Shown here: positions 3,558 through 21,488 of the stretch, one piece after another | How the letters are laid out: every line of letters starts with the position of its first letter | Numbering within the stretch: the stretch's first letter is position 1 | Origin: a virus | Length of the DNA stretch: 24,434 nucleotides | IMG/VR virus record: IMGVR_UViG_3300048507_001045 | Span: 1 to 24,434 of that record | Strand: one strand, 5' to 3' | Position numbers and translations under genes: made by a program | Notes under the pieces: model-generated | The model's database searches: none | What the model was told of the DNA's origin: nothing | The model's input: only the letters and a program-made list of their open reading frames with translations

Positions 3558-3581
3558 AAGCCCTCTTCGGAGGGCTTTTTT
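3558..3581 (+). terminator. Strong rho-independent terminator after hsp20
   Basis: An eight-base-pair stem AAGCCCTC / GAGGGCTT (3558-3565 and 3570-3577) closes on a TTCG tetraloop and runs into a T tract ending at 3581. It lies 8 bases after the hsp20 stop codon, isolating hsp20 from the next gene. Confidence 0.93.
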
Positions 3582-3600: not shown

Positions 3601-3616
3601 GTGTATAATATATATT
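3601..3616 (+). promoter_or_regulatory. GTGTA-type putative phage promoter before fibre gene
   Basis: GTGTATAATATATATT directly abuts the ATG at 3617, with GTGTA starting 16 bases upstream. The same GTGTA element recurs before several other unit-heading genes in this window. Here it also contains TATAAT (3604-3609), with TTGTTG 18 bases further upstream, so a host sigma-70 promoter is an alternative reading. If TATAAT is a -10 element, the transcript would have almost no leader. Confidence 0.45.
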
Positions 3617-4678
3617 ATGGCCGAAGAACAAGAAAATGTAAAAAAGATTAGAGAGCTTGATAGTTTTGAAACTAGTCAACCACTAGCTACAGGCGATTAT
3701 TTAATAGTTGCTACTAATGAGGGAATACCTGCAACTAAAAAAGCTTCAATTAAAGAGGTTGTTGATATTTATAATATTTCGTTGATTGATGAAGACGAGG
3801 AGGATCAAGTTACAGATCCAGATAACCCAGGAGAAACAATCAAAGATCCAGAAAAAGAGCCCGGCAAAGAATTAGATGAAGATGGCGATGGAGAACCTGA
3901 CGGCAAAATCATCACAACACCAGTTAATGCAGGAAATTTAGATACTATTATTCAAGAAGGCGGCGGCTTAAAAGTTATAACTGAATGTCGTAAAAAAGAA
4001 GATAATGCAATCGTTGACTGTAGTAGTGCTGATGCTTATTATCGTTATGGAAAGCTCGCTTTAGATTTAGGTGAAACTGAAGGTGTTTATGGTTACGATA
4101 TGGAATTTAATTACGGTTTTCCTAAGAAAAGATATTTCTTTTCATTTGGATTGCTGCAAAAAATTGAATATGGAGTAGGTAAAATCTTGGAATATTTCGC
4201 GCCTCCGGAGTCTGGATGGTTTAGTCTTCTTGATAATAATACTCAGCCAGACATGGCAGAATTAACTATAAATCTTTCTGGAGAAACTGATAATTTTGGA
4301 GAAGTGGGTGGTATGTGGGGTTATATCCTTGAACATAATGCATGGACCTTTATTAATGCAAAACCATCAATAATGAATGATTTTACAGAATATTTTTACT
4401 TCTGGAATGAAAAACTAGGATGGTACAGTTTTATAATCGCGACCTACCCTTTTGTTTATCTCTCTCAAGGGGTAGTTATAAGTGAATCCGAACAAGTTTC
4501 TCCAAGTTGGGCCTACATATATGAAGATAAAATTTATCTTTATGAAAATCAAAAATGGTACCAAATCAGCGATTTGTCGCCTGTTGATAGTAGCGGGCAA
4601 CCTACGCCTCCAACCGATCTGCCTGACACAGGTGATACAGTTTTCCTGCCCCCCGCCGAAGAGGTACCTGACCGATAA
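3617..4678 (+). CDS. Fibre/appendage-like structural protein with acidic linker
   Basis: Length 353 residues. The N-terminus (residues 9-53: KKIRELDSF, GDYLIVATNEG, ATKKASIKEV) is the K-I-x-E-L-x...D-L/Y-L-I-V...K-x-x-x-x-x-L/V module often found in phage fibre and appendage proteins; a related stretch occurs in the minus-strand protein at 7865-8545. Residues 58-98 form an acidic linker containing DEDGDGEPD, which looks like a thrombospondin-type-3 calcium loop. The rest (about 100-353) is rich in Tyr, Trp and Gly, with a WGYILEHNAWTF stretch and IYEDKIYLYENQKWYQIS near the end, followed by a Pro-rich tail. I do not recognise a catalytic domain. The ATG follows a GTGTA-type promoter with no Shine-Dalgarno between them. 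Confidence 0.6.
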   Translation: MAEEQENVKKIRELDSFETSQPLATGDYLIVATNEGIPATKKASIKEVVDIYNISLIDEDEEDQVTDPDNPGETIKDPEKEPGKELDEDGDGEPDGKIITTPVNAGNLDTIIQEGGGLKVITECRKKEDNAIVDCSSADAYYRYGKLALDLGETEGVYGYDMEFNYGFPKKRYFFSFGLLQKIEYGVGKILEYFAPPESGWFSLLDNNTQPDMAELTINLSGETDNFGEVGGMWGYILEHNAWTFINAKPSIMNDFTEYFYFWNEKLGWYSFIIATYPFVYLSQGVVISESEQVSPSWAYIYEDKIYLYENQKWYQISDLSPVDSSGQPTPPTDLPDTGDTVFLPPAEEVPDR

Positions 4679-4684
4679 TTAAAT

Positions 4685-4843
4685 ATGAAACACACTCCAG
4701 AACAATTAAAATCAATAGCCCAAGAAGCAAAAAAAAGCCTTAATCAAGTAAGGCAAAAATTTTTGAAAGAACACGGGGTAGAAGATAAAAAAGAAAAATC
4801 TAGCAAATCTTCTCAGCAAGAAGCAAATCTCAAGAAGTCTTAA
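4685..4843 (+). CDS. Small highly charged protein (52 aa)
   Basis: An ATG-started frame of 52 residues beginning MKHTPEQLKSIAQEAKKSLN and ending in a Lys/Glu/Ser/Gln-rich tail (EDKKEKSSKSSQQEANLKKS). It is predicted to be a helix followed by a disordered tail. It starts 6 bases after the stop of the fibre-like gene and ends 18 bases before the next small gene, filling the gap neatly in the same direction. The Ala/Lys/Glu-rich composition and amphipathic start look like a real phage small protein rather than chance, but there is no recognised family and no good Shine-Dalgarno. Confidence 0.55.
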   Translation: MKHTPEQLKSIAQEAKKSLNQVRQKFLKEHGVEDKKEKSSKSSQQEANLKKS

Positions 4844-4847
4844 ATTA

Positions 4848-4861
4848 GTGTACTCACATAT
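4848..4861 (+). promoter_or_regulatory. GTGTA-type putative phage promoter with overlapping palindrome
   Basis: GTGTA begins 14 bases before the GTG start at 4862, the same spacing as before the GAF and portal genes. The perfect 14-base palindrome CTCACATATGTGAG (4853-4866) overlaps both this element and the start codon. Confidence 0.4.
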
Positions 4862-5101
4862 GTGAGGAAAACTGATATAGAGAAAATTAAACGCAATGCC
4901 CCCGAGCTTCCTTATAATACTTGCCCTTACATTGATTTCATACAAGAGATCTTAAAAGAAGCTATTGATCAAACTGATTCTGTATTAGTAGAAAAAAAAC
5001 TAGAGTTAGCTGATTCTATTTTGGAATATGTGCGCGAATCTAATGATTCTCTACGCCAAAGCTCAATGTATTGGTATCAAAAATTTAATTCAAATAAGTA
5101 A
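4862..5101 (+). CDS. Small conserved-looking phage protein (79 aa), unknown function
   Basis: The frame starts at GTG 4862, the only possible start between an in-frame stop at 4847 and the body of the gene. The 79 residues look mostly alpha-helical, with an N-terminal KTDIEKIKRNAPELPYNTC stretch, a central helix (DFIQEILKEAIDQTDSVLVE) and an ordered-looking C-terminus (SMYWYQKFNSNK). There is no membrane segment and no recognised domain. It is the last plus-strand gene before the strand switch and converges on the 749-residue minus-strand gene with 13 bases between. The GTG start inside a perfect palindrome suggests control at the start site, as inference only. Confidence 0.6.
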   Translation: MRKTDIEKIKRNAPELPYNTCPYIDFIQEILKEAIDQTDSVLVEKKLELADSILEYVRESNDSLRQSSMYWYQKFNSNK

Positions 5102-5104
5102 TTT

Positions 5105-5126
5105 AAAGATATTATCACATATCTTT
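5105..5126. terminator. AT-rich hairpin between convergent genes
   Basis: AAAGATAT (5105-5112) and ATATCTTT (5119-5126) form an eight-base-pair stem around a six-base loop at the convergent ends of the 4862 and 5115 genes, overlapping the latter's stop codon. Being symmetrical it could act on both strands, but it is AT-rich and has no long T tract, so its strength is doubtful. Confidence 0.35.
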
Positions 5127-7364
5127 ACCAGGTATATTCCATTGAGTTAATTCAAAAGTATAAGTGCGAAGCGCCCAAGTATAAGTCGTAACACCCCCTA
5201 AAGGACTAATACGAACCCAATCATATGTTGTATTTTGAAAATTATACCCATTTGAAATATTAATAGAGTTTATCTGGCCGTGATCACTAATGCCTGCCGA
5301 AAAACCAGGAAAATTTGGCGAAGAATAGTCAGAAAGATCAGATTTGTAATGATTTACCCTCTCTGTTCCGTCTTGAAATTCAGCAATTGAATAAGCCCTT
5401 GTTCGTGGATCTTGCATCCTATCAACAGGATCTGATTTAGGAGGATTGCTGCCATTTGATGTGACATGTAGCCATTCTTCCATCTTAATCAATAAAATCA
5501 TTGTTCCGGGTTGGGATTCATAAAGTGAACGATCATATCCGCTACCTGCATTTGTTAGTGAATAGCTAGTTATCCTATTACCTTCTACATGTATTTTTCC
5601 TTTTGCCCCGCTACCTATTACAGTAGGTGTTCCTATAAATTCTATTTTAAAAGATCCATATCCATGCCTGCCAAAAAATGTATCACTCATACGCGGTAAA
5701 TAAGTTGATGTATCATTATAACCTGGCCCCAAAGCCAGAGGATTCAGGGCATTCTCTATAAAGTCTCCATTTTCATCCAAGAGATCTGAATTGACAAAAC
5801 TACTTTCGTCTAATTGAGCTATATCAGTATCAAATGCAGTATAATCCGATTTATTGCTAGAAGTTATCTCACTAGTATCAATGTAGTAATACTTGGGACC
5901 AATTCCTTCAAATATCACATCTCCATTTAAATCTTTTTCTGAATAAACAGTAAGTTTTGCATCTTTCGCTATATACATCGCAAACACTTCGCTCAAAAGA
6001 AGCGGAATATTTGGACCGTTAAACATTTCATTTAAATCTGGATAAACTCCTTTATGGTACATAGCAATTCGTCCAGTGTTATAATTATACAAAACCCCCT
6101 CGTAATCATATTTTCTAAAAAATTCATAAGGATAAATAAATGAAGGGAAAGGGGGATTACTCACATTATATGTACCAATATATGTAGGGGATCCTGCAAT
6201 AAAACCAAGGAACTCAACTAAGGGATTATTGGATAATTCTCCTGCAGAAAGGTCTAGTTCATAATGACTCTCAATTTCTATATTGCGATCAGGCATTATA
6301 AATTGATTACCAGTAATGATTATACTTGATATCCATTTCTTGAATATATAACCTGTTTTAGGCTTAGGGTCCAGAATTACTTGTTGTCCAGGTAAATAAG
6401 ATCCTGAACCCGTAGGATTTCCATGATTATCCTTTGCGGTGACAGTAACAGTGTATTCTATCGCATCATATATTGCAGTTACCGTTACATCGCTGGCAGG
6501 CATTGTAAATTTATTATTTGATATACTGATGCTTGATGGATCTATCTCCCAGCGCACAAAACCATAGCCTGCATCAGGATTAGGAGAAAGACTGACGATC
6601 TCGTCTATTGTATATGTTCCTGAACCAGAAGGCGACCCATTTGTACCAGTAACCGTTACTGTATATTTTATTGTATTAAAATTTGCCCTTAAAAAGACAT
6701 CTTCAGCAGGCATAACGAAACTATTTCGTAAAACAGAAACATTGCCTGATAAAACCGTCCAGTTTAAAAAACTATATCCAGGATCTGGGCTTACTGAAAT
6801 ATTAACAAGAGCTCCTTCTTTGTGAGGGCCAGCTCCTGCAGGTTGACCATGATCACTAAGAATATCAACGATATGGGAGATTTTAGGTATATATCCAACA
6901 AGTCGAATTTTAACCAATCCCTTTGGTGCAATAATTTCTACCTTTCCTTCATTGTTTGTTGGGCAAATTATATAGTTACCTTGACCATTTTTATCCACAA
7001 AAGAATTTCCAATGCCACCGATTAAATTATTATTTAATACTTTATCTACTTTATAGTTTTCATCTCCCGCAGGACGTGCGATTATTGCGTCGTTTATATC
7101 TTCGGTGTATTCGCCCGATATTTTTAAAAAAACTAGAGCCTTTTTTGTATTTATAAATTTACTAAGATCTAAATTCCTAAATGGCAGCTCCGCTTCAGTA
7201 TCAATGTCAGCACCAGAAAGCTCGAAATATACATTTGAAGAAATGAAGCCGCCAATTAAGTCTTTTTTTGGCAGTCTTTCGTAAATGTTCGAATCGCTTC
7301 TTTTTTTAAACCCAGTGAAGTCTATTTCGAATTCATCTTTTCCATTATGATCAGATAAAGACAT
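5115..7364 (-). CDS. Large fibre/adhesin-like protein with three InlB-type repeats
   Basis: This 749-residue protein has three parts. Residues 1-162 match the whole neighbouring protein at 7369-7863: both have L-D-L-S, IxxRPAG near residue 97, a LIGG/LVGG, then TNxxGxxE and GYIP near 158. Residues 164-369 contain three tandem repeats of about 67-70 residues with G-S-G-x-Y, V-x-L-x-P-x-P, G-Y-x-F-x-x-W and MPA-x-D-V, the pattern of the divergent InlB B-repeat/Flg_new family of beta-grasp stalk modules. Residues 370-749 are a distinct region rich in Tyr, Asn, Gly and Ser (YPYEFFRKYDYEG, GSGAKGKIHVEGN), which could be a receptor-binding head. It is the last gene of a minus-strand operon, 4 bases after its neighbour. 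I infer a virion fibre or spike. The start has GAG about 9 bases upstream. Confidence 0.7.
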   Translation of the reverse strand: MSLSDHNGKDEFEIDFTGFKKRSDSNIYERLPKKDLIGGFISSNVYFELSGADIDTEAELPFRNLDLSKFINTKKALVFLKISGEYTEDINDAIIARPAGDENYKVDKVLNNNLIGGIGNSFVDKNGQGNYIICPTNNEGKVEIIAPKGLVKIRLVGYIPKISHIVDILSDHGQPAGAGPHKEGALVNISVSPDPGYSFLNWTVLSGNVSVLRNSFVMPAEDVFLRANFNTIKYTVTVTGTNGSPSGSGTYTIDEIVSLSPNPDAGYGFVRWEIDPSSISISNNKFTMPASDVTVTAIYDAIEYTVTVTAKDNHGNPTGSGSYLPGQQVILDPKPKTGYIFKKWISSIIITGNQFIMPDRNIEIESHYELDLSAGELSNNPLVEFLGFIAGSPTYIGTYNVSNPPFPSFIYPYEFFRKYDYEGVLYNYNTGRIAMYHKGVYPDLNEMFNGPNIPLLLSEVFAMYIAKDAKLTVYSEKDLNGDVIFEGIGPKYYYIDTSEITSSNKSDYTAFDTDIAQLDESSFVNSDLLDENGDFIENALNPLALGPGYNDTSTYLPRMSDTFFGRHGYGSFKIEFIGTPTVIGSGAKGKIHVEGNRITSYSLTNAGSGYDRSLYESQPGTMILLIKMEEWLHVTSNGSNPPKSDPVDRMQDPRTRAYSIAEFQDGTERVNHYKSDLSDYSSPNFPGFSAGISDHGQINSINISNGYNFQNTTYDWVRISPLGGVTTYTWALRTYTFELTQWNIPGKDM
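6258..6875 (-). repeat. Three tandem InlB-type protein repeats (DNA span)
   Basis: The three repeats encoded inside the large adhesin gene run 6675-6875, 6465-6674 and 6258-6464. They are similar in protein but diverged in DNA, so they are old duplications rather than a recent expansion. The best-conserved part is the GY-x-F-x-x-W followed by F-x-MP. Confidence 0.7.
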
Positions 7365-7368
7365 ATCA

Positions 7369-7863
7369 TCACTCGATCATTGGAATATACCCAATCATAG
7401 AAATATTAATTTTTAATCTGGGCATATAAAATTCTATTTGGCCATATTTATTTGTAGCGGTTGACACATTGCCGCCTTTTCCTCCTCCACCTAAATAAAT
7501 TGTAGAGCAGCCTCCGACTAATTCATCTGAGCCACCTTTTCGAGTTATTGGGTTGGTAGATTCTTCTGCCCCAGCAGGTCTTACTGAAATAGCATGTGTT
7601 CCTGTTTCTTCTGCATCCGAAAATACCGAAAATAGAACGAATGCTTCATTCTTTCCTATAGCGGGTGATAAGTCAAGAGTTTTAAACAAGGAAGCATTGG
7701 TATCATTAATAACATTAAAAGATTGAGAAGAAGGAATAAAACCTGAAGCTTTATCTATAATTATTTTTTTAAAAATAGGATCTTCCTCTAGATTGTCTTG
7801 GGTAGCAAACGTTTTGCCGTTTAGCTCAAAAGATTGCTTTCCCTTAAATTCTGATAAAGGCAT
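7369..7863 (-). CDS. Fibre-associated structural protein, paralogue of adhesin N-terminus
   Basis: This 164-residue protein aligns along its whole length with residues 1-162 of the downstream 749-residue protein: both begin M-x-L-S, carry F-E-x-x near 12-14, and share KTLDLSPAIG versus RNLDLSKFIN, IxVRPAG versus IIARPAG, ELVGG versus NLIGG, and IGYIP versus VGYIP. It has a Gly-rich stretch (YLGGGGKGGN, 123-132). It looks like a beta-rich capping or adaptor module. An AGGA lies 7-10 bases before the ATG on the minus strand, and the gene follows its upstream neighbour by 1 base. Function unknown; its duplication within one operon argues for a role at the same virion structure as the longer paralogue. 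Confidence 0.65.
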   Translation of the reverse strand: MPLSEFKGKQSFELNGKTFATQDNLEEDPIFKKIIIDKASGFIPSSQSFNVINDTNASLFKTLDLSPAIGKNEAFVLFSVFSDAEETGTHAISVRPAGAEESTNPITRKGGSDELVGGCSTIYLGGGGKGGNVSTATNKYGQIEFYMPRLKINISMIGYIPMIE

Positions 7864-7864
7864 T

Positions 7865-8545
7865 TTATGTTCCTACTTGTATCCAGCTATTTAAGGCTTC
7901 TGTATAAATGTATAAATTAGCTGTGTTTTCATCAAACCAAAATTCTCCGTTTTTAGGATCAGATGGTTTTTCAGTTCCGATATTTGATCTTGCGGAGTCT
8001 CTTAAAAGTGTTGGGTCAATCGCAAAGCTTTTATCGTATGTTCCATTATTATCTTCATCCCTAGAGATTATCATTAAATCTGCAGGATCAAAATTGGTGA
8101 TTTTATCAAGTTCGCTAATTTTTATGCCACCTGTTTGACTGGTGGTTGTATCTGTACTTGTATCCGTGTCGGTATCTGTGTTAGTGTCTGTGTTAGTGTC
8201 TGTTGCGTTAAAATACTTAATCACTAAAAATTTAGTAGGGAACTCTACATAAGATCCTGACCATCCGGTAGGGTTTGCATAAATTCTAACAGTATTTTCA
8301 TCAATTATATATGTTCTATATTTCTCTTCAAACTGATTTATCTCAGCAATATGACGCTCACGAGCCTCTTCACTCCCTCTCATATCAATATAACCAATGA
8401 CTTGTATATCTGTAGATCCTAAATTATGATTAATATATAAACTATCAGTAGTTATTTCGGGGCCACCAGTATTACCACCTCCAGGTAAATCCATGTAAAT
8501 ATGAGGCCGTATAGCCCATTCAGTACTATAGGTCTCCGTTGCCAT
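7865..8545 (-). CDS. Tail-fibre-like protein with Asp-Thr linker
   Basis: This 226-residue protein has a beta-rich N-terminal region (SLYINHNLGSTDIQVIGYID, TVRIYANPTG, FLVIKYFN), a strictly alternating Asp/Thr-Asn linker (about 115-133), and a module starting IKISELDKITNFDPADLMII that matches the appendage module at the N-terminus of the 3617 gene. It ends with KPSDPKNGEFWFDENTANLY and WIQVG, the KPxNPxxGxxWFDxxTxxLYxY...W signature found very often in phage tail-fibre proteins. I infer a short fibre or fibre adaptor. Its ATG overlaps the stop of the upstream antitoxin-like gene by one base, indicating translational coupling. Confidence 0.72.
   Translation of the reverse strand: MATETYSTEWAIRPHIYMDLPGGGNTGGPEITTDSLYINHNLGSTDIQVIGYIDMRGSEEARERHIAEINQFEEKYRTYIIDENTVRIYANPTGWSGSYVEFPTKFLVIKYFNATDTNTDTNTDTDTDTSTDTTTSQTGGIKISELDKITNFDPADLMIISRDEDNNGTYDKSFAIDPTLLRDSARSNIGTEKPSDPKNGEFWFDENTANLYIYTEALNSWIQVGT
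8144..8203 (-). repeat. In-frame microsatellite encoding Asp-Thr/Asn-Thr linker
   Basis: Short six-base units (GTGTCT and GTGTTA as written on the plus strand) recur and encode alternating Asp-Thr, Asn-Thr and Ser-Thr. Unit length is a multiple of three, so slippage would alter linker length without breaking the frame. Confidence 0.7.
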
Positions 8546-8733
8546 TACTTCTTAGCCCTTAACTCTTTTTTTAATTGTTTATGCACGATCTCTATTTCTC
8601 CTTTTTTTAGCAGCTCCGATGGTGCTTCATTTCCTAGAGCTTCATTAGGCGTTTTAAGCCATTGCGTGGCCCCATAAAAAGGCATTTTATTTGCCAGAAG
8701 ATTTAAAACATCGTATTTTGATAAATTTCCCAT
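8545..8733 (-). CDS. Small protein resembling MbcA/ParS/Xre antitoxin toxin-binding domain
   Basis: Of 62 residues, about 20-58 match the DUF2384 pattern (MbcA/ParS/Xre toxin-binding domain): A-x-x-WLKTPNEALG-x-x-x-P-x-x-LL-x-x-G, then VHKQLKKEL. In bacteria this domain sits at the C-terminus of antitoxins that pair with RES or similar toxins. Here it is almost alone: the DNA-binding HTH of full-length Xre/ParS antitoxins (usually 130 residues or more) is missing, though MGNLSKYDVLNLLANKMPF could be a short helical lead. No RES-type toxin is beside it. It heads the minus-strand fibre operon behind a GTGTA-type promoter. It may block host toxin-antitoxin systems or be a domesticated adaptor; both are inference. 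Confidence 0.65.
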   Translation of the reverse strand: MGNLSKYDVLNLLANKMPFYGATQWLKTPNEALGNEAPSELLKKGEIEIVHKQLKKELRAKK

Positions 8734-8751
8734 ATAATATATATATTACAC
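8734..8751 (-). promoter_or_regulatory. GTGTA-type putative phage promoter for minus operon
   Basis: Reading the minus strand, GTGTAATATATATATTAT runs straight into the ATG at 8733, with GTGTA starting 18 bases upstream. The preceding ACTTTG (plus-strand 8752-8757) is also present immediately before the GTGTA of the portal promoter, so the match between these two sites is ACTTTGGTGTA, 11 bases. Confidence 0.5.
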
Positions 8752-8759
8752 CAAAGTTT

Positions 8760-8778
8760 GTGTATTTATATTTATATA
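8760..8778 (+). promoter_or_regulatory. GTGTA-type putative phage promoter for phoH, divergent
   Basis: GTGTATTTATATTTATATA lies back to back with the minus-strand element, the two GTGTA arms forming a partial palindrome (TACACCAAAGTTTGTGTA, 8747-8764). Here GTGTA is 36 bases before the phoH ATG, further than in the other cases. Confidence 0.4.
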
Positions 8779-8795
8779 TTAATCCTAAATGAATT

Positions 8796-9521
8796 ATGGG
8801 AAGAAAAAAAATTAATACTGATACAGTAGAAGAGATTGTTAAAAATACCTTCAAGTCAAAAATAACGGTAAAAGGAAAAAAATTAAGCGATAAACAGCAA
8901 GCCTTTCATAAAATAGCGATGGACGAAGAAACCAAAATAATCTTCGTTTCGGGACCAGCAGGATCAACCAAAACATATATGGCTGTATTCTCTGCACTTC
9001 GTCATCTTCAGAAAAATGAGGACCTCGATTTGCTTTATGTAAGAACTGCGATTGAAAGTGCCGAAAAAGGTTTAGGGGCATTACCAGGAACACTAGAAGA
9101 AAAATTTAACCCTTACATGGCTCCTCTAGAAGATAAACTTGATGAAATGCTCCCCAAGACGACTCCTATTAAAAATGACCTAGTTAAATCTGGTCGAGTG
9201 CAAGCAATGCCTATAAACTTTCTTCGGGGAGCAAGCTGGATCAATAAGATAGTTGTTGCAGATGAATCGCAAAACTTTACATTCAAAGAGTTGGTGACAC
9301 TAATAACTCGTATTGGTGACGGCACGAAGTTATTCATTTGCGGCGATATTATGCAAAGTGATATCAACGGAAAAAGCGGTTTCAAAGATATGATAAATCT
9401 ATTTAGAGATGAAGAGAGTGCCGAAAAAGGAATACATTGTTTTAGATTTAACGAACACGATATTTTTAGAAGTGAAATTTTAAAATATATTGTCAAAAAA
9501 TTAAAAACACCAAAATCATAG
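8796..9521 (+). CDS. phoH: PhoH-like P-loop ATPase
   Basis: This 241-residue protein has the PhoH core: Walker A region GPAGSTKT (53-60), YVRTAIESAEKGLGALPG (81-98, the family's R-x-x-x-E-x-G-x-x-x-G-x-L-P-G), the PINFLRGASW segment (139-148), Walker B IVVADESQN (152-160) and CGDIMQSD (182-189). It is close in length to other phage PhoH proteins and has no extra domain. The Walker A departs from G-x-x-x-x-G-K-T by Thr in place of the last Gly, a deviation also known in marine phage PhoH. PhoH proteins are predicted RNA-linked ATPases; their role in phage infection is unresolved and not clearly phosphate-related. It is the first gene of the long plus-strand block, divergent from the fibre operon. 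Confidence 0.93.
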   Translation: MGRKKINTDTVEEIVKNTFKSKITVKGKKLSDKQQAFHKIAMDEETKIIFVSGPAGSTKTYMAVFSALRHLQKNEDLDLLYVRTAIESAEKGLGALPGTLEEKFNPYMAPLEDKLDEMLPKTTPIKNDLVKSGRVQAMPINFLRGASWINKIVVADESQNFTFKELVTLITRIGDGTKLFICGDIMQSDINGKSGFKDMINLFRDEESAEKGIHCFRFNEHDIFRSEILKYIVKKLKTPKS

Positions 9522-9534
9522 TGTATTCATATTT
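9521..9534 (+). promoter_or_regulatory. GTGTA-type putative phage promoter for GAF-like gene
   Basis: GTGTATTCATATTT lies directly before the ATG at 9535, starting 14 bases upstream, with its first base shared with the phoH stop codon. There is no Shine-Dalgarno in the gap. Confidence 0.4.
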
Positions 9535-10152: not shown

Positions 10153-10194
10153 CTAATTGATTTTTATAAGTTTGCTTTTTATTATGTAATAATT

Positions 10195-10572
10195 ATGCAA
10201 ACAATATTTTGTACAGAATGTGGAGCTAAAATGACTTATTCTGGAGCTAAACCCAAATTCTGCTCGTCTTGCGGATGCAGTATTGGAAGTGTTCAATCAG
10301 AAAAGTCAGAAGAAAAATCTAAGCCTAAACAAAGTAGACCTCCGAGCTTTAGAGATCAAATAGAAGCAAAAAAGCAAGGTCGCCCGTTATCTGATGACGA
10401 AACAGATTTTGAAGAAGTTCCCTATCTGTCTTCTTTAGATTATGAAGTAAGCAGTGCGGGCGCAGGAAATCCTACCTATAACTTTCAAGAAATTTTAAAT
10501 GCCGAGAGCAAAGAAGAACAAGAAACTAAGCCCGCAAGAAAGCCAAGAAAACCAAGAAGAAAATCCAAGTAA
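10195..10572 (+). CDS. Zinc-ribbon protein with charged tail
   Basis: This 125-residue protein begins with a zinc ribbon: Cys6-x2-Cys9 and Cys23-x2-Cys26 (FCTECGAK ... KFCSSCGCS). A Lys/Ser/Glu-rich linker follows, then a short segment with DDETDFEEVPYLSSLDYEV, and a basic tail (KPARKPRKPRRKSK) that would bind nucleic acid. The last 74 bases overlap the start of the sigma-factor gene in another frame. Its position right before a phage sigma factor suggests a transcription accessory protein, analogous in role perhaps to late co-activators, but I see no sequence similarity to support that. Confidence 0.65.
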   Translation: MQTIFCTECGAKMTYSGAKPKFCSSCGCSIGSVQSEKSEEKSKPKQSRPPSFRDQIEAKKQGRPLSDDETDFEEVPYLSSLDYEVSSAGAGNPTYNFQEILNAESKEEQETKPARKPRKPRRKSK

Positions 10573-11281
10573 AGATTCTCTTCATTATGATGACTTCTCT
10601 GATTTAATAGATCAAGAGTTAAATAAAAGAAAAAAGAATTGGTTTTTAACTTCAGTCTCCTGGGTTGATTTCGATGATGTTTCTCAAATTATTCGAGCTC
10701 ATATATATAAAAAATGGGATCAGTGGGATCAAAGCCGCCCAATCAAACCATGGCTTAATAAAATTATAGCAAACCAAATGAAGAATATCTTGCGTAATCA
10801 TTATAGTAACTACGCAAGACCTTGTTTAAACTGCCCTTTTAATTCTGACTCCGAATATCATCTTTGTAGTTTTACAGAATCTGGCGACCAAGATTGCACC
10901 TGCCCTCTTTATGCTAAATGGGAAAAAACTAAAAAACATGCATACAATGTTAAGATTACATTATCATTAGATAGCCACATACATGAAATAGATGGAGGTT
11001 CAGAAGCTTTCCTTGGTCTTGATTTACAAGTTGCGTCTGAAAAATTAATCAAAGAATTAAAAAAACAATTAAACTCAAGGCAATTCTTAGCTTTTGATTT
11101 ATTATTTATTAAAAACTTAACAGACGAAGAAGTGGCAACAAGAATGGGGTTCAAAAGTACAGAAGTAGGCAGAAAAGCGGGGTACAAACAAATTAAAAAT
11201 CTCAAAAAGACTTTAAAAGAAAAAGCTGTTAAAATATTAAAAAATAAAGGAATTGCATTTTTAGGCGACGATGAATCTTAA
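10499..11281 (+). CDS. Phage sigma-70-family RNA polymerase sigma factor with cysteine cluster
   Basis: Length 260 residues. Residues 52-105 read as sigma region 2: WVDFDDVSQIIRAHIYKKW, then RPIKPWLNKIIANQMKNI, the D-x-x-Q...W-L-x-x-I-x-x-N pattern of ECF-like factors. Residues 185-248 read as region 4 with an HTH (LTDEEVATRMGFKSTEVGRK) and preceding LNSRQFLAFDLLF. Between them lies an insertion with Cys109, 112, 123, 133 and 135, probably a zinc site, not normal for ECF sigma factors. Such a factor would redirect host RNA polymerase to phage (likely late) promoters. The only plausible start is ATG 10499, giving a 74-base overlap with the zinc-ribbon gene; the first 30 or so residues are low-complexity, so the functional core may begin later. 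The next gene overlaps its stop by 11 bases. Confidence 0.78.
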   Translation: MPRAKKNKKLSPQESQENQEENPSKDSLHYDDFSDLIDQELNKRKKNWFLTSVSWVDFDDVSQIIRAHIYKKWDQWDQSRPIKPWLNKIIANQMKNILRNHYSNYARPCLNCPFNSDSEYHLCSFTESGDQDCTCPLYAKWEKTKKHAYNVKITLSLDSHIHEIDGGSEAFLGLDLQVASEKLIKELKKQLNSRQFLAFDLLFIKNLTDEEVATRMGFKSTEVGRKAGYKQIKNLKKTLKEKAVKILKNKGIAFLGDDES

Positions 11282-12320
11282 CGAGGAACAAAAACAATTT
11301 ATTCGGGATAACTTTAAAAGTAATCCTAACCTTCTTGATTTAACCAGGCAAGTCTTCGAGGATCCAACTATAGACGGGCGGAGTAAAGAAGGTCGGGCAG
11401 TTAGGGCATTCCTAGCTGAGGAAAAACTGGAGTACAAAACTACAAAAAGAGAAAAAGTTCCAGATATACAATTAACTGATGAACAAATAGAGTTTATCAA
11501 AGCTCAAGCCCAAAATAATTTAAGTGCTTATCAAATTGCTGAAATATTATTTCCAGATATTAATATTAAGCGTTTCTGTAAAGAACACATGACAATCGTA
11601 GAGTTTCTAAGAGAATACGAGCCAGCATATGTACATGAAACAGAAACAGCTATCAATAGATCATATAATCCGCCAAAAATATTCAGTACAGCTTTAAAAA
11701 AGATAAATACTTTTACTTTAAGGGAGATGCACGAAGACAAACTCACTCATGACGAAATAGACTGCGTTGAGTCTTTAATGAGAAGTTTATCGGCGCCAAG
11801 ATTCATACAAGTTATTAGTAACTACAACAGTATGAAGGACAGGGAATTGTTCGAGGCAGAATTTGTAAGAGCTACATGGGACAAGCCAGATTTAACAAGT
11901 GACGAAATAAACTTATACATCAATGTGTGTGTTGATTATATTAATTTAAAAAATATATCTTCGCATATAGAGAAACTTAATACAATGTTTAATGAAGTAG
12001 AAGATCAACAAGATATGACAGTTCGTTTAGCAGAAGTATTAAAATCAAAAACTGATGAATATGATAAGTGTGAGAAAAGAATGGAGTCACTAATTAAAAA
12101 ATTAAATGGTGATAGAGCGGAACGTCTAAAGAATCGCCGCCAGGATAATGCAACCATTATTTCACTTGTAAAGAGTTTTCAAATCGAGTCAGAACGTCGT
12201 CGAATGATCGAATTAGCCGAAATGCAGAAAAAATTAGTTGAAGATGAGGTAACTCGCCTTGATAATATGGATAGCTGGAAAGCTAGAATTTTAGGAATAT
12301 CAAAACACGATGCAGTATGA
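11271..12320 (+). CDS. Duplicated-HTH-like protein upstream of terminase, unknown function
   Basis: Length 349 residues. The N-terminus holds two related helical segments of about 45 residues: one begins LNEEQKQFIRDNFK and ends VRAFLAEE, the other begins LTDEQIEFIKAQAQNN and ends IVEFLREYEP. Both fit small HTH-type folds. The middle (about 120-220) is helical and acidic, with LTHDEIDCVESLMRSLSAPR. The end (about 225-340) is a long charged coiled-coil-like stretch (HIEKLNTMFNEVEDQQD, ESLIKKLNGDRAERLKNRRQ). DNA binding plus coiled-coil oligomerisation, two genes from the nuclease-TerL pair, makes it a candidate small-terminase equivalent or transcription partner; neither is shown by sequence. 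Its ATG sits within the sigma gene's last codons. Confidence 0.6.
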   Translation: MNLNEEQKQFIRDNFKSNPNLLDLTRQVFEDPTIDGRSKEGRAVRAFLAEEKLEYKTTKREKVPDIQLTDEQIEFIKAQAQNNLSAYQIAEILFPDINIKRFCKEHMTIVEFLREYEPAYVHETETAINRSYNPPKIFSTALKKINTFTLREMHEDKLTHDEIDCVESLMRSLSAPRFIQVISNYNSMKDRELFEAEFVRATWDKPDLTSDEINLYINVCVDYINLKNISSHIEKLNTMFNEVEDQQDMTVRLAEVLKSKTDEYDKCEKRMESLIKKLNGDRAERLKNRRQDNATIISLVKSFQIESERRRMIELAEMQKKLVEDEVTRLDNMDSWKARILGISKHDAV

Positions 12321-12571
12321 AAAGAATTGAACTATTAGTAGGAGATTATGAATATTCTCAAATACAAGAAATATTTGAGAACGAAAAAGACTTCAAGCCA
12401 GTTAATGAAAAAGATCAGGTTATAATAAAAGCCTTAAAAGAAATCATTAATGAAAGTAACTTAAAAGAAGAAAATGTTGGGGGCGAAGAAACATTCACCA
12501 CAACAGTTAAAAAAATCAATGAACCAGAAAATAAGTCACTTGACGAAGGTAAGGTTGAATTTAAAGTATGA
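12317..12571 (+). CDS. Small acidic protein (84 aa), unknown function
   Basis: Starts in an ATGA overlap with the previous stop codon and ends in an ATGA overlap with the next start, so three genes are translationally linked. The 84 residues begin MKRIELLVGDYEYSQIQEIF, with a central acidic helix (KALKEIINESNLKEENV) and a Lys/Glu-rich tail. No recognised domain or membrane segment. Confidence 0.6.
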   Translation: MKRIELLVGDYEYSQIQEIFENEKDFKPVNEKDQVIIKALKEIINESNLKEENVGGEETFTTTVKKINEPENKSLDEGKVEFKV

Positions 12572-12819
12572 ATATAATCTCAGAAGAAGATAAAAGTAAA
12601 ATTATTGAGGGTATTGCTACGGCTACTCTTAATTCTTTCAATATTAACGGCCTCGTGCAGGCGGCAAAGTTTTATTCAGTTCATTTGGCTAATGAGCAGT
12701 ATACAAACATGAGCGAAGATGATAGACTCAAAGTTCTCTCAGAAATTAAAACCGCTGAAGAAAAAGCTAAGGAAAGCACAGAAGCTGAACAGAAAGAAGA
12801 AGAAGTAGTTACCGCTTAA
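12568..12819 (+). CDS. Small helical protein (83 aa), unknown function
   Basis: The ATG overlaps the preceding stop by 4 bases. The 83 residues contain a hydrophobic-amphipathic middle (ATLNSFNINGLVQAAKFYSV) with HLANEQYTNMSEDDRLKVL after it, and an acidic tail rich in Glu/Lys/Ala (about 58-83). No homologue recognised. In position it resembles the small accessory genes often found before terminase in phages. Confidence 0.6.
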   Translation: MNIISEEDKSKIIEGIATATLNSFNINGLVQAAKFYSVHLANEQYTNMSEDDRLKVLSEIKTAEEKAKESTEAEQKEEEVVTA

Positions 12820-12828
12820 GGCTCAAGC

Positions 12829-12849
12829 TTCGGCTAACTATTTTTTTTG
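12829..12849 (+). terminator. Weak hairpin with T tract before the nuclease gene
   Basis: A three-base-pair AGC/GCT stem around TTCG is followed, after a short gap, by a run of eight T. The stem is too short to be a confident terminator; it could be an attenuator between the small genes and the nuclease-TerL pair, or chance in a T-rich gap. Confidence 0.25.
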
Positions 12850-12863
12850 TTTATTTTTTTAGT

Positions 12864-13970
12864 ATGGCTGAAGTATGCAAAATTTGCAATAAGTCTTACA
12901 AGAATAAACGCGGACTGCATCTCCATGTATCTAGGATACATAATTTATCTGTTCCTGAATATTATACGCAAGTATATCAAAGAAAAGATAAGTTTACAGG
13001 AGAGCTTTTAGATTTTAAAGATACTGTTGATTATTTCTCTAGAGACTTCATCTCTATTGAAAACTTCATAGCTTGGTCAGAGAATGCCGATCCTTCCGAG
13101 GTGAAGGATTACATGTTTAAGCAATTAAAAGCCCGAATAGACGGCAAGAAGCTTGCTTATGGCCCGTTTCACTTAGAGCTTAGCTTGAATAAGCTGCCAT
13201 CTATTGATTTATTTAAAAAGTTTTTTGGTTCTTATTCCGTTGCTTGTGAAGAATTAGGTGTTGAGCCCCTGTATAATAAAAATTTAATTAATAATTTTTT
13301 TGATAAAGATCCAGAGCTCGATAATGTCAAGATATTAATTGACACAAGAGAAAGAAAGCCTTTGTCGTTTAATAAATCTGCCAGCCTTAAGTTAGACTTT
13401 GGTGACTACGCAGTAGGCTCTCCGCACTATAATTATACTTATGTAGACCGAAAGGATGAAAGCGATTTTCGTAGTACGATGACCACAGGCTACGAACGCT
13501 TTGTTCGCGAGCTTCAGCGAGCACAAGAATTTGATGCATTTTTATTTATTGTCGTAGAAGGCTCTGTAGAATCAATCGTTAAAAATAATATTATTAATCC
13601 TAAAAAGAGTAATTTGTCATTCATTTGGCATAACATGAGGCAGCTTGCTCACGATTTTCCTCGTCGCTGCCAATTTATTTTTACAGGACAAAAGGGTAAA
13701 TTATTATTTAATACATTAAATGATGAATTTTATTCTAATTATGGGCTTCTCTACGAGAAGGCGAAACAGCTGAAAGCTGATGGTTGCCACGCGGAAGCTA
13801 ATGAAATTAATAAACAAATGTGGATCATTAAGAAAAAATCCTTCACCCCTGCCTACGAAAAGTATGTGGAGCATGCGAGACGGGTTTCAGAGCGGCTTAT
13901 CCCTAAACTGTTAGTTTACGGTAAAGAATTATGGGAAGCGGATTTACAATATTTTATAGATAAACGATGA
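12864..13970 (+). CDS. Zinc-finger / ERCC4-type nuclease, coupled to TerL
   Basis: Length 368 residues, with three recognisable parts. Residues 5-26 are a C2H2 finger (Cys5, Cys8, His21, His26) followed by NLSVPEYY. Residues 110-134 (KLPSIDLFKKFFGSYSVACE then LGVEP) resemble the second half of the homing-endonuclease-associated HNH repeat, a DNA-binding element. Residues about 155-260 match the ERCC4/XPF nuclease fold: ILIDTRERKPL, LDFGDYAVG, then YVDRKDESDF (195-201). The family motif is ERK-x-x-x-D; here Asp replaces the Glu. The C-terminal 100 residues are helical. The stop overlaps the TerL start (ATGA), implying joint production with the packaging motor. It may process concatemers, cut at structures or degrade host DNA; it is not a typical homing endonuclease of HNH, GIY-YIG or LAGLIDADG type. 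Confidence 0.72.
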   Translation: MAEVCKICNKSYKNKRGLHLHVSRIHNLSVPEYYTQVYQRKDKFTGELLDFKDTVDYFSRDFISIENFIAWSENADPSEVKDYMFKQLKARIDGKKLAYGPFHLELSLNKLPSIDLFKKFFGSYSVACEELGVEPLYNKNLINNFFDKDPELDNVKILIDTRERKPLSFNKSASLKLDFGDYAVGSPHYNYTYVDRKDESDFRSTMTTGYERFVRELQRAQEFDAFLFIVVEGSVESIVKNNIINPKKSNLSFIWHNMRQLAHDFPRRCQFIFTGQKGKLLFNTLNDEFYSNYGLLYEKAKQLKADGCHAEANEINKQMWIIKKKSFTPAYEKYVEHARRVSERLIPKLLVYGKELWEADLQYFIDKR

Positions 13971-15841
13971 GTTGGGAAGAAGGTAAGTTTTCAGTCCGAA
14001 GTAACGGGCCAGATATTAATAAAGAATTAATGCAGATCAAAGGGCATCTTGACGAGCAAGATGCCAAGTATCACCTTCATAATTTTTTAAGAGAAAACAT
14101 AACATTTACAACGAACCTCATAGCTGGCGTAGACCTATTCCCTTTTCAGCACTTAGCTATTAAATCAATGCTAGAAACTGACTACTTTCTTGGGATATGG
14201 AGTCGGGGTATGTCAAAATCTTTTAGTACTGCTATATATGCTTTTCTAGACGCAATATTTAATCAAGGAGTGCAAATTGGTATTTTGGCGGCTACATTTC
14301 GTCAGTCTAAAATGATATTTGAAAAGATTGAGGATATAGCTAATAAGCCAGAAGCACAGTTTCTGGCTCAATGTATCACAAAGAAATCAAAGAAGAATGA
14401 CCAATGGACACTCGAGATAGGAGAGTCTAAAATTATTGCTCTACCACTAGGTGACGGATCAAAGCTTCGTGGTTTCAGATTCCATAGAATCATCATTGAT
14501 GAGTTTTTATTAATGCCTGAGCATGTATACAATGAAGTTATATTGCCATTCTTGAGTGTTGTACAGAACCCTACAGAGAGAGAAAAGACGAAAAAACTTG
14601 AGGATCAATTAATTGCTCAAGGAAAAATGAAAGAAGAGGATAGATACCAGTGGCCAAACAATAAATTAATAGCTTTATCTTCTGCTAGTTATAAGTTTGA
14701 GTATTTATATAAAGTATATGAAACCTTTGAAGATTTAATTCTTAATGGCGTTCCTGATGCAAGAAAGGATACGTCTAAAAGAGTTATTATGCATTTTAGT
14801 TATGATGTAGCACCTGAAGCTTTGTACGATCAAAATTTGATTAATCAATCAAAGCAAACAATGAGCCAGTCTCAGTTCGACAGAGAGTTTAATGCTATAT
14901 TTACAGATGACAGCTCTGGGTACTTCAAAACATCTACAATGGCGACATGCACTATACCTGATGGAGATGGCCCACATTTAGAGGTTGCCGGAGATAAAGA
15001 TTCAAAATATTTGCTTGCGTTTGACCCCAGTTGGGCAGAGTCAGAAAGTTCTGATGATTTTGCCATACATGTATTTAAATTAAACGATAATACTCAAACT
15101 GGTACATTGGTTCATAGTTATGCTGTTCCTGGTTTAAAAATGCAGGATCATATTAATTATTTCCATTACTTACTTACTCATTTTAATATTGTTGCAATAG
15201 TAGGAGACTACGGTGGCGGGGTGCAATTCATGCAAGCAGCTAATGCAAGTGAGCAATTTAATAAAAGTGATATTAATATAAAAGAGATTGTGGCAGATTT
15301 TGATAACCTAGAAAACTATCAAGACGGCTTAAGGGATGCAAAGAATCAATACAATCTTAAAGAACGAAAGATCTGTTTCTTAAGAAAACCAACGTCAGAC
15401 TGGATCAGGCGAGCAAATGAATTACTGCAAGCAAACTTTGACCACAAAAGAATTTGGTTCGGATCTCGACCACTTGATGAAAATTACCATAGACAAATTA
15501 AAAAATCTGTACCTGTAGATGAATTAATATTCATGCCTAATCAGAAAGAAGTATTAAAAAACTCTGGCTCAGGTAAAATTATTGATTTCTTGGATCATCA
15601 GTATGATATGGTTAATTATACAAAAAATCAATGTGCATTGATACAGGTTTCATCATCCCCTCAGGGCTCGCAAACATTTGGGCTACCTAATAATCTAAAA
15701 AGGCAGAGCGGTCCTAGTAAAACACGAAAAGACTCCTATTCAGCTCTTGTTCTAGGCAATTGGATGATTAAGACTTATTACGACTTTGTGAATGTTCAAT
15801 ATGAAGAGCATGATACGACTTTCATTCCTTATATGGTATAA
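13967..15841 (+). CDS. terL: Terminase large subunit (TerL), packaging ATPase-nuclease
   Basis: This 624-residue protein drives DNA into the prohead and cuts it. The ATPase part has an adenine-binding-like FPFQHLAIKSML (58-69), a Walker A position WSRGMSKSFST (78-88), ILAATFRQS, Walker B RIIIDEFLLM (174-183) and the coupling motif LSSAS (237-241). The Walker A reads G-M-S-K-S where G-x-G-K-S/T is usual. The C-terminal RNase H-like nuclease begins YLLAFDPSWAESESSDDFAI with Asp353, continues IVGDYGGG with Asp414, and has DFLDHQYDMVNYTKNQ near the end, supplying acidic residues for metal binding. It is full length for the T4/large-terminase type. It follows the ERCC4-type nuclease with a 4-base overlap and precedes portal. 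Confidence 0.93.
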   Translation: MSWEEGKFSVRSNGPDINKELMQIKGHLDEQDAKYHLHNFLRENITFTTNLIAGVDLFPFQHLAIKSMLETDYFLGIWSRGMSKSFSTAIYAFLDAIFNQGVQIGILAATFRQSKMIFEKIEDIANKPEAQFLAQCITKKSKKNDQWTLEIGESKIIALPLGDGSKLRGFRFHRIIIDEFLLMPEHVYNEVILPFLSVVQNPTEREKTKKLEDQLIAQGKMKEEDRYQWPNNKLIALSSASYKFEYLYKVYETFEDLILNGVPDARKDTSKRVIMHFSYDVAPEALYDQNLINQSKQTMSQSQFDREFNAIFTDDSSGYFKTSTMATCTIPDGDGPHLEVAGDKDSKYLLAFDPSWAESESSDDFAIHVFKLNDNTQTGTLVHSYAVPGLKMQDHINYFHYLLTHFNIVAIVGDYGGGVQFMQAANASEQFNKSDINIKEIVADFDNLENYQDGLRDAKNQYNLKERKICFLRKPTSDWIRRANELLQANFDHKRIWFGSRPLDENYHRQIKKSVPVDELIFMPNQKEVLKNSGSGKIIDFLDHQYDMVNYTKNQCALIQVSSSPQGSQTFGLPNNLKRQSGPSKTRKDSYSALVLGNWMIKTYYDFVNVQYEEHDTTFIPYMV

Positions 15842-15854
15842 TTTCTAAAAGTTA

Positions 15855-15890
15855 ACTTTGAACTTTCAAAGTAGACTTTGATAAACTTTG
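15855..15890 (+). promoter_or_regulatory. ACTTTG repeat cluster and inverted repeat before portal
   Basis: Copies of ACTTTG occur at 15855, 15875 and 15885, with a variant ACTTTC at 15862. CTTTGAA and TTCAAAG form a seven-base-pair inverted repeat around a two-base centre (15856-15871). The last copy runs directly into the GTGTA element. The layout suggests a protein-binding region next to a promoter. Confidence 0.4.
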
Positions 15891-15904
15891 GTGTACTATA
15901 AAGT
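15891..15904 (+). promoter_or_regulatory. GTGTA-type putative phage promoter for portal
   Basis: GTGTACTATAAAGT lies directly before the ATG at 15905, starting 14 bases upstream, after ACTTTG. The minus-strand element at 8747-8757 has the identical ACTTTGGTGTA. Confidence 0.5.
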
Positions 15905-17947
15905 ATGCCTAGAAAATATAATAAAAAATCAGAGTACTGGAATAAATTTAACACTTCCAGCGGAGACAATAAAGACAATCAGTCGTCTTCACTAAATGAG
16001 CAACTAGATAATATCTCTCCCGCTAGTGCTGGTGATGCATATTATACGGAAGCTTCTTATCAGAGAAATGTTAATCAAATCACATCCGAACAATCAACAA
16101 GAGGCAGAAGAAATTTTACAGCTACTACAAAAAAGCCTGCTAAATATAAGAACATTGATGAATGTCCACTTTCATATAGCAATGAAAAGAATTATATTAG
16201 CCCCCGATCCTCTATATTATTATGTCAGAAAGCATATGCGAATATTTCGATTTTCAGGAATGCGATAGATGTAATGTCCGAATTTTCTAATTCTGATATT
16301 TATTTAGAAGGGGGTTCCGAAAAGTCAAAAGCATTCATAGAAAAATGGATGGAAAAAATAGAGATCTGGAAACTTAAAGATCAATATTTCAGGGAATACT
16401 ATAGGTCAGGTAACGTATTCATGTACAAGGTAGATGCTAAATTTACTGCGGAAGATTTAATAAAACTTAATAAAGTTTATGCAGCAGAAAATAAAATTTT
16501 GCCGAATAGAAAAATACCTATTAAGTATATCTTTCTTAATCCATATGATTTTGTAGCTGATAGAGTATTGTCTTTTAATGTGCAAGATGGAGTTTATAAA
16601 AAAATATTAAGCGAATATGATATTCAAAGATTAAGAAATCCGCAAACCGATTATGATGTAGAAGTTTTTAATAGCTTACCAAAAGATGCTAAAGATGCTA
16701 TCAAGAAAAACTCCTTTAATCAAGAAGGTGTGTTGATCAGTCTTGATGCTAATAAATTATTATTTTCTTTTTATAAAAAACAGGATTACGAACCTTTTGC
16801 TACTCCTTTTGGCTTTCCTGTGCTTGATGATATCAACTGGAAGATAGAGCTTAAAAAAGTTGATCAGGCTATAACAAGAACCATTGAAAATGTTATTTTA
16901 TTAGTAACCATGGGTAATACGCCAGACAAAGGAGGCGTTAACCCAAATAATTTAAAGGCAATGCAAGATCTTTTTCAAAACGAAAGTATCGGCAGAGCCC
17001 TTATTGCGGATTATACAACAAAAGCAGAATTTATAATTCCAGACTTGAATCGAGTTCTTGGTCCGACTAAATATGAAATAGTTAATGAAGACATCAAGGA
17101 AGGCTTGCAGAATATTATTGTAGGTAAAGAGAATTATTCTAGCACACAAGTAAAAGCACAAATATTTCTAGAAAGATTAAAAGAAGCGAGAAACAGTTTT
17201 CTTAATGATATCTTGCAGCCACAAATTAAAGAGGTGTGCAAAGCTATGGGATTAAAAAACTATCCAAAAGCAAAATTTGTAGAGATTGATATCAAGGACG
17301 AAGTTCAAATGCATAGAGTAACATCGCGTTTGATAGAGATGGGAATCATTACTCCTGAACAAGGAATGACAGCACTCAAGCAGGGAGTTTACCCCGACCC
17401 AAAAGATTTGAGTCCAGCACAAGACAAGTTTGTTGCAGACAGAGAAAAAGGTCATTATACTCCATTAAGTGTTTCTCAGCCAATATTATCAGAGGAAGAG
17501 CAAGAGCTAAGAGAGAAGCAGCTATCTCAACCAACTGCTCCTGCTGCCCCTAAAGTCTCTAATGATAACGGTAGGCCTGCCGGAACCAAGACAAAAACTA
17601 ACAATCTTATAGCATCTGAAGATTCTTACAGTAGGGCAGAAATTCAATCTGTTATTTATGCTATTGAAAATTTAAATAAATTTATGGAATCTGAGCTCAG
17701 GAAAGTTTATAACAAGAAGCGTTTATCTAAGCAGCACAAAGAAATGCTATCTTCTCTTTCTGAAAGTATTGTTATGTCTAAAAACATCGATCAATGGGAG
17801 TCTTCCGCAGAGGCATGCATAAAAGATTTTAATAAAATTGAATCGCTAGATGTAATGCCTGGGATACTAGAACTTGGAGAACAGCATAAAATCGTATCAT
17901 ATCCAGCCGCGATACTATATCATAGTCAAAAAAATAAAACTAAATAG
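15905..17947 (+). CDS. Portal protein
   Basis: This 680-residue protein would form the dodecameric ring at the capsid vertex through which TerL pumps DNA. Evidence is placement right after TerL and before the protease, suitable size, and portal-like segments: IFRNAIDVMSEFSNSDIY (116-133), KLKDQYFREYYRSGNVFMYK (156-175, the F-x-x-x-x-x-x-G-x-x-F/Y-x-Y found in many portals), and a long helical stem region around the NRVLGPTKYEIVNEDIKEG segment. The first 80 residues are Ser/Asn/Gln-rich and probably flexible. The C-terminal region (about 590-680) is helical, with SRAEIQSVIYAIENLNKFM and KKRLSKQHKEMLSSLSESI. It starts a new unit with a GTGTA-type promoter and no clear Shine-Dalgarno. Confidence 0.85.
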   Translation: MPRKYNKKSEYWNKFNTSSGDNKDNQSSSLNEQLDNISPASAGDAYYTEASYQRNVNQITSEQSTRGRRNFTATTKKPAKYKNIDECPLSYSNEKNYISPRSSILLCQKAYANISIFRNAIDVMSEFSNSDIYLEGGSEKSKAFIEKWMEKIEIWKLKDQYFREYYRSGNVFMYKVDAKFTAEDLIKLNKVYAAENKILPNRKIPIKYIFLNPYDFVADRVLSFNVQDGVYKKILSEYDIQRLRNPQTDYDVEVFNSLPKDAKDAIKKNSFNQEGVLISLDANKLLFSFYKKQDYEPFATPFGFPVLDDINWKIELKKVDQAITRTIENVILLVTMGNTPDKGGVNPNNLKAMQDLFQNESIGRALIADYTTKAEFIIPDLNRVLGPTKYEIVNEDIKEGLQNIIVGKENYSSTQVKAQIFLERLKEARNSFLNDILQPQIKEVCKAMGLKNYPKAKFVEIDIKDEVQMHRVTSRLIEMGIITPEQGMTALKQGVYPDPKDLSPAQDKFVADREKGHYTPLSVSQPILSEEEQELREKQLSQPTAPAAPKVSNDNGRPAGTKTKTNNLIASEDSYSRAEIQSVIYAIENLNKFMESELRKVYNKKRLSKQHKEMLSSLSESIVMSKNIDQWESSAEACIKDFNKIESLDVMPGILELGEQHKIVSYPAAILYHSQKNKTK

Positions 17948-17952
17948 TTTTA

Positions 17953-17970
17953 GTGTATAATAATACTATT
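17953..17970 (+). promoter_or_regulatory. GTGTA-type putative phage promoter for protease-scaffold
   Basis: GTGTATAATAATACTATT lies directly before the ATG at 17971, with GTGTA starting 18 bases upstream. It includes TATAAT (17956-17961), but I see no matching -35. The GTG of this element is in frame with the gene; I take it as promoter, not as start codon. Confidence 0.45.
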
Positions 17971-21382: not shown

Positions 21383-21406
21383 TACAGGTGTCTTTCAGAT
21401 CATTTC

Positions 21407-21436
21407 AAAAAATCCACCCATAGCGGTGGATTTTTT
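21407..21436 (+). terminator. Strong rho-independent terminator after capsid gene
   Basis: AAAAAATCCACC (21407-21418) pairs with GGTGGATTTTTT (21425-21436) around a six-base loop. The 12-base-pair stem with T tract sits 24 bases after the capsid stop and would end the head transcript. Confidence 0.93.
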
Positions 21437-21488
21437 GTTTATAAACTTTATAATATAATTAGCGAATAACCAGGTGAAAGGAATAGAC

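Follow-up and report, generated by a model that had tools for sequence, protein, structure and literature searches.

A GTGTA element as the probable −10 core of late, putatively leaderless promoters that a phage sigma factor probably reads in a lineage of uncultivated phages

The IMG/VR record IMGVR_UViG_3300048507_001045 is a viral contig of 24,434 bases, the whole of which (hereafter the window) was analyzed, and it raises the question of why the pentamer GTGTA recurs at a short distance before genes without a clear Shine-Dalgarno (SD) sequence. An earlier note on this DNA had proposed that GTGTA is part of a −10-like element, that the mRNAs are leaderless or nearly so, and that a sigma factor encoded in the window could read the element; all three proposals are supported by comparative sequence evidence. 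With a probability put at about 85%, late promoters have GTGTA as their −10 core and would be used by the phage sigma factor together with the host RNA polymerase, yielding leaderless or nearly leaderless mRNAs. The window was compared with 23 related contigs of 22-203 kb, the set amounting to 1.4 Mb and 1,488 genes with enough upstream sequence; the final 842 bases of one contig (G005) lay outside it. The contigs are fragmentary, genes in the relatives were called with a simple script, and the 23 contigs share a common ancestry, so that counts from them are not fully independent. Features are on the plus strand unless otherwise stated.

In the window, GTGTA was found at 13 sites on both strands against 25.7 expected, and since it is under-represented overall, the signal is positional. 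Seven of the sites lie at gene heads. The core at 3601-3605 is placed 16 bases before the start at 3617, that at 4848-4852 is 14 bases before the GTG start at 4862, and that at 9521-9525 is 14 bases before 9535, a gene with a GAF domain (PF01590). The core at 15891-15895 stands 14 bases before the portal-like gene (15905-17947), which heads the structural unit, and the core at 17953-17957 stands 18 bases before 17971, the second gene of the structural block. The remaining two belong to a leftward unit (minus strand, 8747-8751, 18 bases before 8733) and to the rightward phoH unit (8760-8764, 36 bases before 8796). With 8 bases between them, these opposite-strand cores constitute a compact promoter that diverges toward 8733 and phoH (8747-8764). 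All seven sites and spacings in the earlier note were found to be correct on recount. It had also recorded a single interior copy at 20088, which is real, but had missed five others (6451, 7105, 20072, 23499, and 23934). The contrast it drew with SD-bearing internal genes was likewise only partly borne out: genes 19572, 20303, and 21489 do have SD sites, but most of the other internal genes in the window (10195, 10499, 11271, 12317, 12864, 13967, and 21864) do not.

The binomial probability of at least 6 of the 13 sites falling 14-18 bases before the approximately 26 starts is 6e-13, a value uncorrected for the post hoc choice of the pentamer. An AT-rich pentamer noticed by eye in a single window could owe its pattern to chance and after-the-fact selection, and its lack of window-wide over-representation together with the 6 interior sites out of 13 would be in keeping with that. 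The relatives, which played no part in choosing the motif, leave this explanation with almost no probability. Among all pentamers located −26 to −10 from their gene starts, GTGTA was the most over-represented, being seen 171 times against 14.4 expected. The spacing peak was sharp to one base: the distance from GTGTA to the start was 14 bases in 58 genes, 15 in 31, 16 in 18, 17 in 14, and 18 in 17, and 13 in none. As gene calling was simple, an artefact of start choice was considered and rejected, since the peak is present without gene calling: with the window excluded, ATG followed GTGTA at +14 62 times, at +15 55 times, at +13 11 times, and about 20 times elsewhere, and none of five control pentamers showed a comparable ATG peak in this count. 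The core is followed by approximately eight A/T bases and tolerates variation to GTATA (35 against 7.8 expected) and, more weakly, to GTTTA (24 against 11.9). The density of GTGTA per kb was 0.26 in coding sense, 0.35 in antisense, and 1.0 in non-coding DNA, and that of the extended form GTGTAhhAT was 0.016, 0.022, and 0.229, respectively. Hence, equal frequency within genes, which the earlier note had named as a refuting outcome, was not borne out: compared with non-coding DNA, gene interiors have about 4-fold less of the pentamer and about 14-fold less of the extended form. Taken with the conservation at orthologs and at portal loci described below, the enrichment and the annotation-free counts refute chance as the origin of the pattern.

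Enrichment at unit heads, which the earlier note had proposed to look for in relatives, was evident from the orthologs of individual genes. GTGTA was found upstream of 22 of 23 portal orthologs and of 9 of 12 orthologs of gene 9535 (at a distance of 14-16 bases), at 14-36 bases in 19/23 orthologs of gene 17971, and at 14-60 bases in 12/19 phoH orthologs. In a wider set of portal loci, it was present within 75 bases upstream in all 85 whose start region is covered, with L193 excluded as its match begins inside the gene. Gene 4862 has GTGTA likewise at 14 bases in one of two orthologs, and gene 3617 has no orthologs among the 23 contigs. No GTGTA was observed among the 21-23 orthologs each of the sigma factor gene, 11271, 12864, 19572, 21864, and the terminase large subunit (0/23), and only 1 of the 22 orthologs of gene 20303 carried it. 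In the window, the terminase gene (13967-15841; phrog_2, E 1.8e-27) accordingly has no GTGTA ahead of it. The genes preceded by GTGTA include those for the portal, tape measure, minor tail, and baseplate proteins.

The fixed short distance before starts that lack SD sites would also be expected of an unconventional ribosome-binding element in the mRNA, that is, of a translation signal and not a promoter. This alternative is very improbable and was rejected on two grounds, the pairing of distal GTGTA copies with SD sites and the specificity for unit heads. Orthologs of gene 21489 carry GTGTA 21-46 bases upstream in 17 of 20 cases and an SD sequence in 14 of 20, and the motif hardly ever marks conserved internal genes. 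In the window itself, the region 21405-21488 before 21489 is without GTGTA, though most of its orthologs have it. When GTGTA lay at 14-20 bases, 1% of genes had an SD sequence of at least four bases; the share was 40% with GTGTA at 21-45 bases, 20% without GTGTA, and 8% in shuffled sequences. The abrupt limit at 14 bases and the base preceding the start codon also fit a transcription start better than a ribosome-binding element. With GTGTA at 14 bases, this base is T in 81% and C in 19%, and is thus a pyrimidine in 58/58 genes against a background of 51%, as would be predicted were transcription to begin at the A (or G) of the start codon.

The same phages were found to carry a canonical sigma70 class of promoters in an identical register relative to the start codon, which is a further argument against a translation signal. 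CTTGAC and TTGACA are over-represented before genes that lack GTGTA and yet have an upstream gap, and in 75 genes the distance from TTGAC to the start is exactly 35 bases, compared with about two genes at most other distances. In this class, TAnnnT occupies −12 to −7 and the base at −1 is a pyrimidine in 59 of 65 genes, and when TTGAC-N17-TAnnnT was located anywhere in the sequences, ATG lay at exactly +35 after 90 of 265 sites. Judged from its sequence, TTGAC-N17-TAnnnT is a host sigma70-type promoter whose predicted +1 is the first base of the start codon. In the other class, the place of this −10 region is taken by GTGTA, at −14 to −10. Hence, the geometry of the GTGTA promoters puts the predicted +1 on the start codon of genes without an SD sequence, and as the predicted +1 of the TTGAC class is there too, the GTGTA class would not be alone in being leaderless. 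TTGAC promoters at 35 bases occur in G001, G002, and G005 as well as in other contigs (L103-L184). The early-type genes of the TTGAC class include rIIA, rIIB, and an endonuclease, and the two classes cluster in blocks along the genomes (7 contigs, p 0.001 to 0.05). A scan for the sigma70 consensus in the window alone gave no excess over shuffles.

In a third explanation, GTGTA is read by a host sigma factor or is simply how a TATAAT −10 box of the host begins (GTGTATAAT), and the sigma factor of the phage has another role. At portal promoters, GTGTA indeed continues as wnAT, resembling TATAAT, and boxes of sigma70 type, allowing up to two mismatches, are somewhat above background there (0.119 against 0.049). 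However, the non-portal promoters keep GTG and lose the TATAAT-like continuation, host-type promoters of these genomes carry TTGAC boxes but lack GTG, and the phage sigma gene is found in every one of the 23 contigs that covers its place and in 42/46 long loci. Reading by a host sigma factor is therefore considered unlikely.

The phage sigma factor is encoded at 10499-11281 and consists of region 2 (PF04542, E 4.8e-6, above the cut-off), a four-cysteine insert, and a C-terminal, region-4-like helix-turn-helix, with no region 3 domain. PF04542 was above the cut-off in 8 of 9 contigs, and TIGR02937 (sigma70-ECF, where ECF stands for extracytoplasmic function) matched 17 of 17 sigma orthologs, spanning residues 54-225 of the window protein, the score of which (32.6) is below the curated cut-off of 42.9. 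The gene was present in 21 of 23 contigs (45-73% identity), and in the two others (G003 and G018) the contig ends a short way upstream of the portal gene. The 46 long loci are those that extend 6 kb or more upstream of the portal gene; of the four in which the sigma gene was not found, one (L052) carries it just outside the fetched stretch. Cysteines C109, C112, C123, and C135 (CxxCPF...C...CPL; window 10823-10903) are invariant in all 17 aligned orthologs, and the insert is possibly a zinc site. The AlphaFold2 model was of low confidence (pLDDT 68.9, pTM 0.41), with C-terminal helices at 193-249; the best fold matches of this low-confidence model in the PDB were to Mycobacterium tuberculosis sigma H (E ~3e-3), and a PDB profile search gave only weak matches to ECF sigma factors. 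No cultivated phage with this sigma factor was found by tblastn in the phages collection. A beta subunit of RNA polymerase (PF00562, Rpb2) was not detected in 9 contigs of 48-203 kb, which are possibly incomplete, while the controls were positive; this makes the host polymerase the likely partner of the sigma factor. Co-conservation, together with the analogy to gp36 of phage phiEco32, indicates that the sigma factor probably recognizes GTGTA. Further matches to sigma region 2 were located at G001:C1:23256-23441 and, below the curated cut-off, at G001:C1:118890-119027, G005:C1:70989-71093, and G002:C1:26208-26414.

A small zinc-ribbon protein is encoded at 10195-10572, overlapping the start of the sigma gene; it gave weak matches to PF12773 and PF11682, has orthologs in 15 contigs, and is a possible partner of the sigma factor. 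This gene pair is headed by a candidate host-type promoter, TTGATT-N17-TATTAT (10157-10185), 38 bases before 10195. A sigma70-like box was found 33-38 bases before the pair in 14 of 22 contigs, the control groups giving 8-43%. Directly after the sigma gene lies gene 11271-12320, which is conserved in 21 of 23 contigs and has no PHROG match.

On the reading of GTGTA as a −10 core, GTGTA and the approximately eight A/T bases after it would form the −10 element of late promoters. The sigma factor, with its ECF-like regions 2 and 4 around the four-cysteine insert, would bind host RNA polymerase and recognize the element, and RNA would start about 14 bases past the first G of GTGTA, at a purine following a pyrimidine. 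The start codon would have evolved to sit at, or a few bases from, this position, so that most late unit-head mRNAs would begin with AUG, or sometimes GUG, with no need for an SD sequence. Units with a distant GTGTA (phoH and the orthologs of 21489) would have a short leader, often with an SD sequence in the latter. Early-type genes, and probably also the zinc-ribbon/sigma pair, would be transcribed from host-type TTGAC-N17-TAnnnT promoters, again with +1 at the start codon. An early-to-late cascade, in which host-type promoters would be followed by GTGTA promoters, is plausible from the clustering of the two classes and the sigma70-like box before the pair. The motif, its geometry and conservation, the existence of two promoter classes, and the joint occurrence with the sigma factor are all seen in the sequences, whereas the transcription start, reading by the sigma factor, the timing, and leaderless translation are inferred from them.

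Several points weigh against this scheme. The predicted binding of the sigma factor to GTGTA is by association only, and extra sigma-like matches are present in three large contigs (G001, G002, and G005). Many GTGTA sites in the contigs lie away from gene heads, so the pentamer alone is insufficient, and most GTGTA promoters outside the portal have no clear −35 element. Also, GTGTA precedes the non-structural genes for phoH and the large subunit of ribonucleotide reductase.

Upstream of the portal promoter, the window carries an array of ACTTT boxes (15855-15889; boxes at 15855, 15862, 15875, and 15885). In the portal promoters of the relatives, ACTTT lies at −28/−27, −17/−16, and −8 to −5 from GTGTA, about 11 bases apart, and it occurs in 100% of portal against 10% of other GTGTA promoters. 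The box at −17/−16 is roughly where, presumably, the AAC of an ECF −35 element would be expected. The boxes may serve as a −35 or activator array or, lying as they do between the terminase and portal genes, as a site for packaging. Palindromes resembling AAAGTTAACTTT accompany it in relatives (L002-L081 and L185-L191). Another feature was observed just before the 3601 promoter, namely, a hairpin resembling an intrinsic terminator (AAGCCCTC-TTCG-GAGGGCTT followed by TTTT; 3558-3577).

More than 600 relatives of the portal-like gene were found in viral contigs, but among cultivated phages it matched only the portal of Bacillus phage Staley, at 21% identity. Most window proteins are without annotated relatives, and no paper describing the GTGTA motif or the phage group was found within the open-access literature. 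Relatives of the portal gene occur in bins of metagenome-assembled genomes named Neomarinimicrobiota, Halobacteriovorax, Verrucomicrobiales, Flavobacteriales, Patescibacteria, and Rhodospirillales; naming a host from the bins was rejected as the relatives are scattered over these different bin names. A wider claim, rated as somewhat favored, is that this is a widespread lineage, with contigs up to ~200 kb, in which leaderless mRNA would be the default at unit heads, early-type genes being served by host sigma70 and late ones by the cysteine-insert sigma factor and GTGTA. If so, the promoter alone would in effect set the start of translation. The pattern yields a promoter map from sequence only, and with it transcription starts predicted to the base, corrections to start codons, and a division of genes into early and late for a large uncultivated group. 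Leaderless translation in phages is documented in few systems, and such a two-class lineage would allow leaderless initiation to be tested on a large scale and would offer a hint as to which hosts are good at translating leaderless mRNA. The sigma factor and GTGTA together are, moreover, a candidate for use as an orthogonal promoter system.

Single −10-like elements read by phage-encoded factors have precedents. In phage T4, gp55, a sigma-family protein of the phage, reads such an element before late genes (TATAAATA). The present system differs in its core and in having the start codon on the expected +1, and the sigma factor here has a region-4-like C-terminus. Late promoters with short motifs near +1 are also known from the jumbo phages phiKZ (TATG) and AR9 (AACA-N6-TA/G), the leaders in AR9 being 26-491 nt (PMC5312081). 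They resemble the system predicted here in having late promoters that are specific to the phage and carry a short motif near +1; however, phiKZ and AR9 have their own multisubunit RNA polymerases, and an enzyme of the phiKZ type was rejected for the present phages in view of the missing Rpb2 match in the 9 possibly incomplete contigs.

Phage phiEco32 encodes gp36, an ECF-family sigma factor whose −10-like motif tAATGTATAtA lies 6-8 nt before transcript starts (PMC4281155, PMC4331800). Both systems have a phage sigma factor of the ECF kind with a single −10-like motif for middle/late promoters, and TGTA is common to tAATGTATAtA and GTGTA(T/A), at a similar distance from the start of the transcript (predicted here). 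Early host-type promoters, phage-sigma promoters before structural genes, and phoH are also shared. However, the two sigma factors are not detectably related (hhalign probability 0.1%), gp36 lacks the four-cysteine insert, and at four phiEco32 genes examined the motif lies 43-66 bases before the start, each with an SD-like sequence. Membership in the gp36 family was therefore rejected, only the mode of action and the motif being alike. In the Thermus phage phiYS40, middle and late mRNAs are mostly leaderless (PMC3594737), whereas the geometry observed here suggests leaderless mRNAs for both the host-type and the GTGTA classes. The closest precedents are thus the leadered system of phiEco32 gp36 and the leaderless one of phiYS40.

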